64,000 bases of DNA from Tsukamurella conjunctivitidis (GTDB lineage: Bacteria > Actinomycetota > Actinomycetes > Mycobacteriales > Mycobacteriaceae): the NCBI RefSeq assembly GCF_007858475.1, contig NZ_VIGX01000003.1:1-64000 (forward strand), given 5' to 3'. The notes beneath the pieces were generated by a model, which saw only the letters and a program-made list of their open reading frames with translations, made no database searches and was not told the DNA's origin. The position numbers and the translations under genes were made by a program. This document shows positions 3,079 through 52,892 of the stretch, one piece after another (position 1 is the stretch's first letter; the number at the start of each line of letters is the position of its first letter).

Positions 3079-4254
3079 TTAGACGCCGGCGGTGGCGAGT
3101 TCGTTCTCGATGGCTGCGGAGAGCCGCTCACGCAGCTCGGGGACGGAGATCCGGTCGATCAGCTCCTGGAAGAAGCCACGCACGACCAAGCGGCGGGCCT
3201 CGTCCTCGGGGATGCCGCGCGAGCGCAGGTAGAACAGCTGCTCGTCGTCGAACCGCCCGGTGGCGCTGGCGTGACCCGCGCCCTCGATCTCGCCGGTCTC
3301 GATCTCCAGGTTCGGCACCGAGTCGGCGCGGGCACCGTCGGTCAGGACCAGGTTGCGGTTGAGCTCGAAGGTGTCGGTGCCCTCGGCCTCGGCGCGGATC
3401 AGCACGTCGCCGACCCACACGGTGTGCGCGTCGGGGAGCTTCGAGGACGGATCGCCCTGCAGGGCGCCCTTGTAGATCACGTTGGACTTGCAGTTGGGCA
3501 CGGAGTGGTCGACCAACAGGCGCTGCTCGAGGTGCTGTCCGGCGTCGGCGAAGTACAGGCCGAAGAGCTCGGCGTTGCCTCCGGGCGCGTCGAACTGCAC
3601 GCGCGGGGTCATGCGGACCAGCTCGCCGCCCAGCTGCACCGCGAAGTGCCGGACGTGCGCGTCGCGCCCGACCCGCACGTGGTGCTGGGTGACCCAGACG
3701 GCGTCGTCGGCGAAGTCCTGCGCGTCAATGATCTGCAGCGACGCACCATCGCCCAGGATGACTTCGACGTTCTCGGCGACCGTGCCCGAGCCGGTGTGGT
3801 CGAGCACGACGACGGCGCGGGCGTGCCGCTCGAGCCGCACCTGGATGTGCGTGAACGCGGTCTTCCCCTCGCCGGGGCCGGCGATGCGGACGAAGACGGG
3901 CTCCGCTACCTCGGCCTCCTTGGCGACGGTGAGCACGAACGCCTCCGTCATGGACGTGAAGGCCTGCGCCGCGACGCGGTCGAACGGCGTGCCGCCCTGA
4001 CCGAGACGCTCGTCGCCCTTGGCGACGGTCTCGAAGGCCACGCCCTCGGGCGCCGCGTCGACGGTCGCGGTCACGGCACCGTCGGCCTGGGCCGACCCGT
4101 CGTGCAGGCCCCGCAGGCGGCGCAGCGGGGTGAACCGCCACGCCTCGTCGCGGTGACTAGGGACCTCGAAGGCCGCGGCGTCGAACGAGGTGAACAGCTC
4201 ACCCTTGTTCGCGACGGGGTGGGCCTCGACGGCCTCGTTGAGAGTGTTCGTCAT
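3079..4254 (-). CDS. sufD: SufD, scaffold subunit of the SufBCD complex
   Basis: A 391-residue SufD, the partner of SufB in the SufBC2D scaffold. The beta-helix core and C-terminal helical region with a DDEQLFYLRSRGIPEDEARRL-type motif, shared with SufB, are present. The start [10 protein letters not shown] is the ATG overlapping the sufB stop by one base (TGATG). The frame stays open upstream inside sufB, but that part is non-homologous. Position between sufB and sufC is standard for actinobacteria. Confidence 0.95.
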   Translation of the reverse strand: MTNTLNEAVEAHPVANKGELFTSFDAAAFEVPSHRDEAWRFTPLRRLRGLHDGSAQADGAVTATVDAAPEGVAFETVAKGDERLGQGGTPFDRVAAQAFTSMTEAFVLTVAKEAEVAEPVFVRIAGPGEGKTAFTHIQVRLERHARAVVVLDHTGSGTVAENVEVILGDGASLQIIDAQDFADDAVWVTQHHVRVGRDAHVRHFAVQLGGELVRMTPRVQFDAPGGNAELFGLYFADAGQHLEQRLLVDHSVPNCKSNVIYKGALQGDPSSKLPDAHTVWVGDVLIRAEAEGTDTFELNRNLVLTDGARADSVPNLEIETGEIEGAGHASATGRFDDEQLFYLRSRGIPEDEARRLVVRGFFQELIDRISVPELRERLSAAIENELATAGV

Positions 4255-46695: not shown

Positions 46696-47763
46696 TCAGA
46701 GAACGAGAACGGCCAGAATGGTCGCCGGAACCGCCAGGACCAGGCCGTGGACGGCGAACCGTCGGGCATCGATCCGCACCCCCGCGCGCAGGCACCGCTC
46801 CCGCCAGAGGAGCGTCGCGAGGGACGCCCACAGCGTCACGATCGGGGCGACGCCGACCCCGATGAGGAGTGCCATGAGCCGGACCGGGTCGCCGGCGGCG
46901 ACCGGTTCGAGCGCGAGATACGCGGGGAGGTTGTTCACCCCGTTCGCCGTGAGAGCCCCGACGCCCGCCACGCGCAACAGGTCCGACGGGGCGGTGCCCG
47001 TCCCCGCAACACCCCGCAGGACACCCTCGAGGCCCGCCGCGAGCGCCACCTGCACTGCGGCGAAGACGGCCGCGAGGAGCAGGACCATTCGCCACGGCAC
47101 GACGATCTCGCGGAGCCGCTGCGGCGCGCGGGCGGCAACCACTGCGACCAGCACGACCGCGGAGACGGTCGCGGCTGCGGCGGGCGGGACGCCGAGCGCG
47201 AAGGCCGGGCCCAGAGCGAGGCAGGCGGCCGCCGCGACGCCGAACAGGACCCGGTCCGGCGGGGGCTCGAACTCCGGCACGTCGTACCGCCCGCGCAGGT
47301 CCCGGCGGTGCAGCAGCCACAGCACGACGACGGTGACGGCGATCGCGACCAGGGCGGGGCGCCAGGACAGCGCGAGGTAGGCGCGCACTCCCCCGTCGAG
47401 GTGGTAGACGGCGAGCAGGTTCGTCAGGTTCGAGACCGGCAGCAGCAGCGACGCGGTGTTAGCGAGCCACACCGTGGTCATCGCGAAGGGCAGGGGCGCC
47501 ACTCCGAGGCGTGCGGCGGCCGCGAGCACCACCGGGGTGAGGAGCACCGCGGTGGTGTCGAGACTGAGGACGATCGTCGCCACGCAGGCGAGCAGCACGA
47601 CGCCCAGCCACATCAGGAGGACGCTGCCGCGGCCCAGGCGGGCCGCGAGGACCCCCATCGCGTCGAACACCCCGGACAGCTGGGCGATCTCGGCGACGAC
47701 GGTGATCGCGAGCAGGAAGAGGAGAACGGGGGCGACCTGCGCCACCACGTCGGCCGCGGTCAC
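46696..47763 (-). CDS. ArsB/NhaD/SLC13-type ion permease
   Basis: A 355-residue protein with ten to eleven membrane helices, of the ion transporter superfamily (CitMHS/ArsB/NhaD). Signature-like segments are [19 protein letters not shown] and [25 protein letters not shown], and, in the second half, [19 protein letters not shown], the two half-helix hairpins with Asn/Thr that bind the ion. The substrate (anion, arsenite or Na+) cannot be told. The GTG overlaps the uvrC stop (GTGA), so it is translated from the uvrC mRNA. Confidence 0.85.
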
Positions 47764-49796
47764 GCGCCGTCGGTGCGCAGGCCGTCGAGCACGGTGCGGG
47801 CGGTGGTCAGGCCGATTCCCGGGACCTCCACGATCTCCTCCAGACTCGCCTCGCGGAGCTTGGTGACCGAGCCGAAGTGCTGCAGGAGCGCGGTCTTCCG
47901 GGTGTCCCCCAGCCCGGGGATCGCGTCGAGCGCGCTCGCCGTCATCCGCTTGGAGCGCTTGTTGCGATGGAAGGAGATCGCGAACCGGTGCGCCTCGTCG
48001 CGCACGCGTTGCAGCAGGAACAACGCGTCCGAGCTGCGCGGCAGGATCACGGGGTCCTCCTCGCCGGGAACCCACACCTCCTCGAGTCGCTTCGCGAGGC
48101 CGACCACGGCCACATCGGTCACGCCGAGTTCGTCCAGGACCTCCTGGGCTGCGGCGGCCTGCGGCGCGCCACCGTCGACCACGAAGAGGTTGGGCGGGTA
48201 CGCGAACCGGCGCGGGCGGCCGGTCTGCGGGTCGATGGCGGCCTCCGGGGCGAGGTCGCCCCCGTTGTTGTCGGCGGCGAGGTCGCCCCCGTTGTCGCCG
48301 GCGACGACCGTTGATCCGGCCTCGGGTGAGCCCGCGCCGTCGGCCGCTCGTGCGTCCGCGCGGTGCCGGAGGAAGCGGCGACGGGTGACCTCGGCGATCG
48401 AGGCGACGTCGTCACTGTGTCCGTCGCCCGCGGCCTCCTTGATCCCGTAGTGCCGGTAGTCGGACTTCTTCGCCAGGCCGTCCTCGAAGACCACGAGCGA
48501 GGCCACCACGTCGGAGCCCTGGATGTGGCTGATGTCGACGCACTCGATCCGCAGGGGCGCCTCGTCGAGGTCGAGGGCGTCCTGCAGGCCCTGCAGCGCC
48601 GCCGAACGTGCCGTGAGATCGCCGGAGCGTTTGAGCTTGTGCTGGTGCAGCGCCTCGATGGCGTTGCGCTCCACGGTCTCCATGAGCGTGCGCTTGTCGC
48701 CGCGCTGCGGGACCCGCAGGGAGACCTTGGCGCCACGCAACTCCTCGAGCCATTCCTGCACCTCGTCGGCGTCGTCCGGCAGTACCGGGACGAGCACCTC
48801 GCGTGGGACCGGGTTCACGGCGGCCGCGCCCGACTGCTTCGCCCGCTCGGCCTCCTCGCCGTAGAACTGCGTGAGGAACTGCTCGATGAAGTCGGCGTTC
48901 TCGCTGCCCTCCGCATCGCCCGGCTTCTCCACCACCCAGCCCCGTTGACCGCGGACCCGGCCGCCGCGGACGTGGAAGATCTGCACCGCCGCCTCGAGAT
49001 CGTCGGCGGAGAAGGCGATGACGTCGGCGTCGGTACCGTCGCCGAGCACGACGGCCTGCTTCTCCACGGCCTTGCGCAGGGCCGCGACGTCGTCCCGCAG
49101 CCGCGCGGCGCGCTCGAAGTCCAGCTCCTCGCTGGCGCCGAGCATGTCGCTCTCGAGCTGCTTGATGAGGTTGTCGGTCTTACCCGCGAGGAAGTCGCAG
49201 AAGTCGAGCACGATGTCGCGGTGCTGGTCGGCCGTGACCCGCCCGACGCACGGCGCCGAGCATTTGTCGATGTAGCCCAGCAGGCACGGGCGGCCCATCT
49301 GGTTGTGCCGCTTGAAGACCCCCGCCGAACAGGTCCGGGCGGGGAAGACGCGCAGCAGCAGGTCGAGCGTCTCGCGGATGGCCCAGGCGTGGCTGTAGGG
49401 GCCGAAATATCGCACGCCCTTGCGCCGGGGGCCGCGGTAGACGTACAGCCGCGGGTACTCCTCGTTCAGGGTGACCGCGAGCATCGGGTAGGTCTTGTCG
49501 TCCCGGTAGCGGACGTTGAACTGGGGGTCGAACTCCTTGATCCAGTTGTACTCGAGCTGCAGCGCCTCCACCTCGGTGCCGACGACCGTCCATTCGACGG
49601 ACGCGGCGGTGGTGACCATCTGGTAGGTGCGCGGGTGCAGGCCGTAGACGTCGGCGAAGTAGGAGTTGAGGCGGCTGCGCAGCGACTTCGCCTTGCCCAC
49701 GTAGATGACGCGGCCGTGCTTGTCCCGGAACTTGTACACGCCGGGCTGCAGGGGAATGGTGCCCGGTGCGGGACGGTAACTCTGCGGATCGGCCAC
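47760..49796 (-). CDS. uvrC: UvrC, excinuclease ABC subunit C
   Basis: A 678-residue nuclease of nucleotide excision repair. GIY-YIG domain at the N-terminus ([26 protein letters not shown]), the Cys-rich [30 protein letters not shown], the UvrB-binding UVR segment ([28 protein letters not shown]), RNase H-like domain ([24 protein letters not shown]) and C-terminal helix-hairpin-helix pair. An insertion before the second half of the RNase H domain contains a repeated NNGGDLAP-like unit. GTG start at 49796. The permease gene is coupled downstream. Confidence 0.96.
48253..48302. repeat. Imperfect tandem repeat inside uvrC
   Basis: The bases CGAGGTCGCCCCCGTTGT occur twice, 27-30 bases apart, encoding two copies of a (D/N)NGGDLA unit in a non-conserved loop of UvrC. 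The repeat keeps the reading frame. It is the sort of sequence in which slippage can change the copy number. Confidence 0.6.
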
Positions 49797-49884
49797 CCGT
49801 CCAGATTAGGACGGCGGGCCGACATGTTCGGGTGCGGGCGGTGCTCGCCCCGGCCGCCGACGGCGATGCGAGCCGGTCAAGCGG

Positions 49885-51111
49885 TCACGCGGGCGCCGCG
49901 GTCACCGCCGTCCCGGCCTCCACGGCGCGCCGGTCCTGCGCGGCGCGTCGGGGCGCCCGCGGACGGGGCGGGACCATGCTGCGGGAGGCCAGCGGGTCGT
50001 CGCCGGCAAGGTCGAACCGTCCGCGGTAGCCCGGTGCGTCGATCCGGTGCGCCACCAGATGGGGCGTGAGCAACGCCACCCACAGGCCGCAGAGGTGGCA
50101 CTGCACCCGGTCGCCGTCGTCCTCCAGGTGTCCGCGGTGCGAGCGCAGCAGCTCACCCAACGACTCGGCGTAGTCGTCGTGGGCGGCCATGCGGTCCAGC
50201 AGCTCGGCCACCCGTTGGTCCGTCGCGTCGATCCGGGTGCGGAACTGGGCCGGGCTCAGGTGTTCGAGCACGCAGCGCCGCAGCTCGAGATAGTGATCGA
50301 GCAGGCCCTCGCGCTCCATCGCGTGCTCGAAGGCGGTGCGTGGGGCGGCGTGACCGTCGTGCTCGGGGCGCGCGGCCCAGCGCGCCGGCGTGCGGGCCGA
50401 GCCCCGTCGCCGTCCACTGATCCGCCCGTGCGCCGCGACGTGGTTGTCGACGCTGGCGAACCACAGGCCGCACGCCGGGCACTGCTTGAGCGCGCCGCCG
50501 GGGGCGTTGACGGCCGAGGGCACGGTGAACGCCGCCGGGTCGTGACTCCACGCGTCGATGATCGCCACGGTCACGGACGCCGCGTCGGTGCCCACCCGGT
50601 CCGCGAGCCGGCTCGGCCCGAGGCCGTTCGCCGCGGCCCAGTTGGCGGCTTCCGCCCAGCTGCTCCAGGGCGCATCGGGCGGCAGTTCGGTCAGTGGCAC
50701 ACCCCGGCCGGGCGGCGGGGGCTCGAGAGAGCCTTCCAGGGCCGTCGGCGACGCCCGTGGACGCACGGGCCGACCGGTCGACCGCGCGGGCTCGGCCACC
50801 CGCTGCTTGCTCGCCCGCCGGGCCCGCGCCGTCGTGGGGCGTTGACGCCCCCGCCGGTGCACCACCCGGTGCGCCTCGACGTCGGAGAACCAGATCCCGC
50901 ACTCGGGGCACTGGTCCACGCCGACCGGCGGTACCGCCGCCGGCGGCCGGGTGAACAGATCCGGCGATCGCGCCCATGCGTCCGCGATCGCCAGCAGCGC
51001 GTCGATCCGGGTGACCCCCTCGCGCTGGGCGATCGCGCCCACGCCGAACCCGCCGGCCGCCGCCCAATTAGCAGCGGCGACCCAGCGCGGATCGTGAGAC
51101 TGCTCGGGCAT
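49885..51111 (-). CDS. Protein with three Ros/MucR-type zinc fingers and an internal duplication
   Basis: A 408-residue protein. Three Cys2His2 fingers share the exact spacing C-x2-C-x9-H-x3-H: C68/C71/H81/H85, C211/C214/H224/H228 and C338/C341/H351/H355, the spacing of Ros/MucR regulators. After the third finger comes APGYRGRFDLAGDDPLASRSM, like the YRxxFxLxxDxPL tail of MucR. Residues 9-85 and 151-228 are a duplication of a helical module (W..AANWAAAxG..., ending IxDAW) plus finger. Arg/Pro-rich linkers separate the modules. Probably DNA binding; target unknown. Not an annotated family that I can name. Confidence 0.7.
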   Translation of the reverse strand: MPEQSHDPRWVAAANWAAAGGFGVGAIAQREGVTRIDALLAIADAWARSPDLFTRPPAAVPPVGVDQCPECGIWFSDVEAHRVVHRRGRQRPTTARARRASKQRVAEPARSTGRPVRPRASPTALEGSLEPPPPGRGVPLTELPPDAPWSSWAEAANWAAANGLGPSRLADRVGTDAASVTVAIIDAWSHDPAAFTVPSAVNAPGGALKQCPACGLWFASVDNHVAAHGRISGRRRGSARTPARWAARPEHDGHAAPRTAFEHAMEREGLLDHYLELRRCVLEHLSPAQFRTRIDATDQRVAELLDRMAAHDDYAESLGELLRSHRGHLEDDGDRVQCHLCGLWVALLTPHLVAHRIDAPGYRGRFDLAGDDPLASRSMVPPRPRAPRRAAQDRRAVEAGTAVTAAPA

Positions 51112-51130
51112 GCCTTTCAGAATGCATCAT

Positions 51131-51157
51131 CGTGTCAACCCCAGGTGTTCTGACACG
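51131..51157. terminator. Inverted repeat between the acyl-CoA ligase and zinc-finger genes
   Basis: CGTGTCA (51131-51137) and TGACACG (51151-51157) form a 7-bp inverted repeat with a 13-base spacer, in the 59 bases between the fadD-type stop and the zinc-finger gene's ATG. It may terminate fadD or be an operator before the zinc-finger gene. Confidence 0.4.
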
Positions 51158-51170
51158 CCCGTCCGAGTCT

Positions 51171-52829
<1,659 letters not shown>

Positions 52830-52892
52830 GGACCATGCGTACCGCATGTCCGACGGTGCGCGGCCCTGTTTCGACCAGCCCACCGGGATCGC

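Follow-up and report, generated by a model that had tools for sequence, protein, structure and literature searches.

Ros/MucR proteins, typified by Agrobacterium Ros and Brucella MucR, are described as oligomerizing DNA-binding proteins that in several cases regulate themselves (PMC9779718, PMC13297338), and the members described so far work as oligomers of single-finger subunits (PMC13297338). None of the titles and abstract openings found in the open literature describes a multi-finger or an actinobacterial Ros protein. Here, we analysed a 64,000-nucleotide stretch of DNA (hereafter, the window) from an actinobacterium of the genus Tsukamurella, that is, not a proteobacterium. On the minus strand (49885..51111), the window contains an ORF with an ATG start for a 408-aa protein (P0001) consisting of three units, each combining a helical segment with a Ros-type zinc finger. 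The protein is real and conserved, and its several units are related to the finger of Ros/MucR.

Protein architecture and relationship to Ros/MucR

The three fingers start at residues 68 (CPECGIWFSDVEAHRVVH), 211 (CPACGLWFASVDNHVAAH) and 338 (CHLCGLWVALLTPHLVAH) and all have the form C-x2-C-x9-H-x3-H, as the original prediction had it, falling within the Ros/MucR pattern C-x2-[C/D]-x9-H-x3-H. In classical eukaryotic C2H2 fingers, about 12 residues separate the second Cys from the first His, compared to nine in the window protein. Unit 1 comprises a helical segment (residues 4-55; 50947..51102, minus strand, as are all features of the gene), with helices modelled at residues 9-20, 24-31 and 35-48, and finger 1 (residues 68-85; 50857..50910), recognized by its motif. 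A basic linker (linker 1, residues 91-138; 50698..50841; net charge +8) connects it to the helical segment of unit 2, delineated from structure models (residues 142-198; 50518..50688), which is followed by finger 2 (residues 211-228; 50428..50481) and a conserved basic tail (GRISGRRRGSAR; residues 229-240; 50392..50427). Unit 3 includes a helical segment assigned from a low-confidence model and a bridge to Gordonia-like repeats (residues 257-325; 50137..50343), finger 3, identified by motif and Pfam (residues 338-355; 50047..50100), and a Ros/MucR-like tail (residues 356-378; 49978..50046).

Finger 3 and its tail (residues 333-383) align with positions 62-113 of the Pfam family ROS_MUCR (PF05443), which correspond to the Ros DNA-binding domain, with a score of 18.9 bits, below the gathering cut-off of 25.4, lending substance to the earlier suggestion of a MucR-like tail at this place. 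The characteristic Y-R...L tail is present behind finger 3 and absent behind fingers 1 and 2. Consistent with this kinship, the best sequence match of the unit profile in the PDB is Ros (2jsp, E 8.9e-6). A match to zf-C2H2_4 (26.4 bits) also falls under its cut-off (27), and in NCBIfam, PHROGs and PADLOC no family reached its cut-off or carried weight. The protein differs from Ros/MucR in having three units rather than one C-terminal DNA-binding domain, in lacking Lys or Arg residues in its finger loops and in its N-terminus, where a helix and finger unit stands and the N-terminal oligomerization region of Ros/MucR is unmatched. Binding of zinc and of AT-rich DNA is a further trait of the Ros/MucR family. 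Single-finger actinobacterial ROS_MUCR proteins, among them one from a Rubrobacter plasmid and gp29 of Gordonia phage Finkle, share the Ros-type finger and HTH-like segments with the window protein but have one finger each rather than three.

In the window protein, the sequence identity between units 1 and 2 is 42%. A duplicated module had been proposed for the first two fingers; this part stands, and the third finger likewise has a helical segment in front of it. Repeats encoded in a Gordonia-like genome (G194) tie all three units together in profile alignments covering both helix and finger, with E-values of 4.9e-13 (82 columns) for units 1/2 and 4.4e-23 (111 columns) for unit 3; at least two helix and finger units of the chain are thus alignable to these repeats. 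When the fingers were removed, units 1/2 still scored 29.28 against the G194 repeats, compared to 17.78 for the best of 100 column shuffles, and unit 3 scored 22.29, compared to 19.8, a weak result. A direct comparison between units 1/2 and unit 3 did not establish the link, as the finger alone aligned (34 columns) and the helical parts, scoring 10.35 without fingers, did not stand out from shuffles, 6 of 100 of which reached this score; the membership of unit 3 hence depends on the bridge provided by the relatives. The third unit is likely to be real, with its helical part the weak link. Modelling of the whole protein yielded a poor structure (pLDDT 49, pTM 0.28) in which, at low confidence, a pattern of helices, small hairpin and helix occurs three times. 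Unit 2 alone, modelled with 18 rows of sequence taken from the window and from named loci, was predicted with pLDDT 81.4 and pTM 0.74 as three helices, two strands and a last helix, and a fold search with this model found nothing at E <= 0.001 in the PDB (best 0.5) or BFVD (best 0.44).

Conservation and selection

A tblastn-type search detected the gene in 9 of the 16 genus genomes, the window's own included, and it is also present in five named Tsukamurella contigs. The nine distinct orthologous proteins, 71-86% identical to that of the window, keep all fingers with the exact spacing (9/9). Averaged over pairs of the nine orthologues, pN/pS is 0.25, 0.11 and 0.33 for the helical segments of units 1, 2 and 3, respectively, 0.14 for finger 1 (residues 64-90), 0.06 for finger 2 (residues 207-238), the most constrained part of the protein, and 0.34 for finger 3 with its tail; outside the units, it reaches 0.76 in linker 1, 0.37 in linker 2 and 0.80 at the C-terminus. 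Purifying selection thus acts on the units and hardly on linker 1 and the C-terminus. The retained spacing in all nine orthologues and the low pN/pS in the units indicate that the three fingers exceed chance. None of the 48 columns of the fast-evolving linker 1 is invariant, as opposed to 29 of the 32 columns around finger 2 (residues 207-238). The tail behind finger 2 retains G229, R230, I231, S232, G233, R235, R236, G237 and R240 in all nine rows of the alignment, and unit 2 contains an invariant hydrophobic run, VTVAII. Antisense ORFs overlapping the gene were rejected because the pattern of selection agrees with the minus frame.

Multi-finger relatives in actinobacteria

The architecture, initially presented as new, is not a one-off. 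Multi-finger relatives are encoded in another Tsukamurella genome (G012; a three-finger protein of 873 aa) and in Gordonia-like genomes, namely, G194 (six fingers spread over a pair of neighbouring ORFs, 512 and 402 aa long) and G1037 (four fingers in one 640-aa ORF), both of genus group g9, and G1072 (three fingers), so that the window protein is a member of a small actinobacterial group. These relatives share the repeated helix and finger unit with the window protein, but are longer and mostly retain a complete tail and basic residues in the loop; in addition, those of G194 and G1037 carry a Helicase-associated-like segment (below cut-off), unlike the window protein. Pfam HTH models match the helical parts of the relatives weakly, with scores under the cut-off. 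The full-length profile matched at least 16 of 301 family genomes, nine of them with orthologues and seven from three other genera, the unit profile at least 15 of 397 order and at least 4 of 396 phylum genomes and the repeat profile, at E <= 1e-6, at least 15 of 401 family genomes, all counts being lower bounds given that 11 candidates per genome (samples A3 and A8) or 6 (A1) were scored. Two of the 72,556 records in the plasmid collection match, one search of viral contigs gave a single relative and three others gave none, and the phage records searched contained no match. The window's own genome also carries, on another contig (C32; L056, ~3093-3416), a decayed single unit with the finger CPACRLYFTDVAAHYRAAH, and a broken stretch similar to it is found in G006 (C2).

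Several relatives lie near genes of defence type, which may be a matter of chance. The four-finger 640-aa gene of G1037 is divergent from genes for Wadjet JetA, JetC and JetD, recognized by PADLOC and Pfam (L191, 1985-10665); JetB would be expected among these. Of the other relatives (L021, 1802-9667; L022, 2798-5594; L051, 8029-11903; L058, 2417-4366), some neighbour genes for a type I restriction-like HsdR, an AbiEi-like protein, a VapBC-like pair or a NADAR-family protein (below cut-off), and on plasmid pGKT3 of Gordonia sp. KTR9 the relative forms a fusion with an AbiEi_4-like domain (score under the cut-off).

Genomic context and history of the locus

As correctly recognized in the original prediction, the gene is flanked by uvrC (47760-49796, minus strand) and a fadD-type gene for an AMP-binding ligase (51171-52883, minus strand). 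Of the 16 genus genomes, 9 have it in this fadD-uvrC interval, the order being fadD, the gene, in some genomes a small secreted-type ORF, and uvrC. In five genomes (G003, G005, G007, G009 and G014) the gene is absent and fadD directly adjoins the small ORF or uvrC; in G010, which also lacks the gene, 1.1 kb separates fadD from the uvrC side, and in G011 the contig stops before the fadD position. On a midpoint-rooted tree of uvrC, at least three changes are needed to account for where the gene occurs, with two forced by well-supported branches, and its distribution may reflect one gain and two losses.

The small ORF (116 aa; L060, 1816-2166) was counted by hand in 10 of the 16 genus loci; it is missing in the window's genome and has no Pfam match. 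In Tsukamurella tyrosinosolvens, uvrC and an orthologue of the 408-aa gene are carried by a replicon labelled 'plasmid 5' (L060, NZ_LR134447.1). The small ORF of G015 is identical to that of L060, and since the gene is part of a 4.9-Mb contig in G015, the plasmid label may be a matter of assembly.

A conserved upstream block with a candidate operator

Immediately upstream of the gene lies a conserved block of 48 bp (51112..51159, minus strand), recognized by its invariant columns. In the eight orthologue genomes other than G004, 39 of the 48 columns are invariant; including G004, in which the block is one base shorter, 30 of 48 are invariant in an ungapped comparison. Within the gene, only 20 of 122 fourfold sites are invariant, and in the first 25 codons, 7 of 14. 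The block includes a palindrome-like 25-base site, GTGTCA-N13-TGACAC (51132..51156, minus strand), which is a candidate operator. With up to three mismatches, this site occurs once each in 9 of the 16 genus genomes, namely, eight with the gene and G005, and its reversed control has no match in any of the 16. The arms are exact in seven of the nine orthologue genomes and broken in G001 and G006; in G004, they are separated by 12 instead of 13 bases. One gapped palindrome was observed in the window, compared to 0.03 expected, and 3 of 100 shuffles have one. The retention of the upstream block without the gene in G005 points to gene loss in that genome.

The block may merely be a promoter. A search of 49800-51300 revealed no sigma-70-type promoter, and no terminator was found nearby. 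The TGACAC motif, which was picked for comparison after the site in the window had been seen, was rejected as a common feature of the relatives' promoters: one copy lies upstream of the 873-aa gene and none was found for G002-376, G1037 or G194.

Charge distribution and possible modes of action

The original prediction envisaged three fingers jointly reading a long DNA site. This is weakened by the distribution of Lys and Arg in the loop of nine or ten residues from the second Cys to the first His: none of the 27 orthologue fingers has a basic residue here, in contrast to 30 of 38 fingers of the relatives, tallied by hand across all motifs in the collected loci after exclusion of the orthologue pieces, L125 and L091 (unrelated motifs) and one duplicate. 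The conclusion is somewhat weaker than with hand-picked relatives, which gave 25 of 29. The eight exceptions come from L074, L075, L076, G1072 (two fingers), the 873-aa protein (two) and the 376-aa protein, and in the two Tsukamurella relatives, one of four fingers has a basic loop, so that the low Lys/Arg content is not special to the window gene; in several relatives, the basic residue is located directly behind a glycine, not within the helix. The third helix segment of the window protein contains no Lys or Arg in unit 2 and two each in units 1 and 3, where it is net negative, compared to two to four in the aligned relatives and none in unit 1 of the 873-aa protein; the overall helical charge of orthologues and relatives overlaps. 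DNA contact might still be made through the linkers or the invariant basic tail behind finger 2.

The explanation that we tentatively favour, well aware that it may prove incorrect, is that the protein is a regulator that associates with DNA and controls its own gene, some of its units being given over to protein contacts; the mechanism is largely inferred. The putative regulator would bind near its own promoter and repress itself, as proposed because the upstream block is conserved and self-repression and oligomerization are known for Ros/MucR proteins (PMC9779718, PMC13297338). DNA would be touched mainly by the basic tail behind finger 2, the basic linkers and the remainder of unit 3; units 1 and 2, with few or no basic residues in their fingers and third helices, would serve mostly for protein contact or self-association. 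A single multi-unit chain could in this way do the job performed in Ros/MucR by oligomers of single-finger proteins.

It is possible, albeit unlikely, that DNA binding has been lost altogether and the protein acts as a protein-contact adaptor, holding, for example, a partner regulator, a sigma factor or a defence protein. Such a role would fit the loss of basic residues from finger loops and third helices, the VTVAII run and the defence or toxin-antitoxin genes adjoining some relatives, but not the invariant basic tail behind finger 2 or the basic linkers; moreover, the window copy has no defence gene among the neighbours seen and no PADLOC match. Quite unlikely, in our estimate, is a sequence-specific DNA reader in which three fingers and three helical segments jointly recognize a long or split site. 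Despite the kinship with Ros, the HTH-like segments and the retention of all three units in nine orthologues, this role is difficult to reconcile with loops devoid of Lys and Arg, third helix segments that lack such residues (unit 2) or are net negative (units 1 and 3), and fingers 1 and 2 without the Ros tail. That the protein silences genes like H-NS or bridges DNA as classical MucR does is very improbable: finger 3 is kin to Ros/MucR and several units per chain could bridge DNA, but the candidate site occurs once per genome and is not AT-rich, and the N-terminal part of ROS_MUCR is unmatched.

Implications

A broader evolutionary scenario, which we regard as unlikely but worth stating, would place the protein among actinobacterial modular arrays of an HTH-like segment and a Ros-type finger, with up to six fingers per locus. 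The Tsukamurella array would have become fixed beside uvrC, its N-terminal units having turned from DNA readers to modules for protein contact or self-association, and one chain would replace the MucR oligomer. Linked multi-unit chains would give bacteria a second way of acting multivalently, beside oligomers of single-finger proteins, and would allow one to test how a bacterial finger gains or loses DNA contact; with the conserved site lying beside the gene, an initial binding assay is straightforward.
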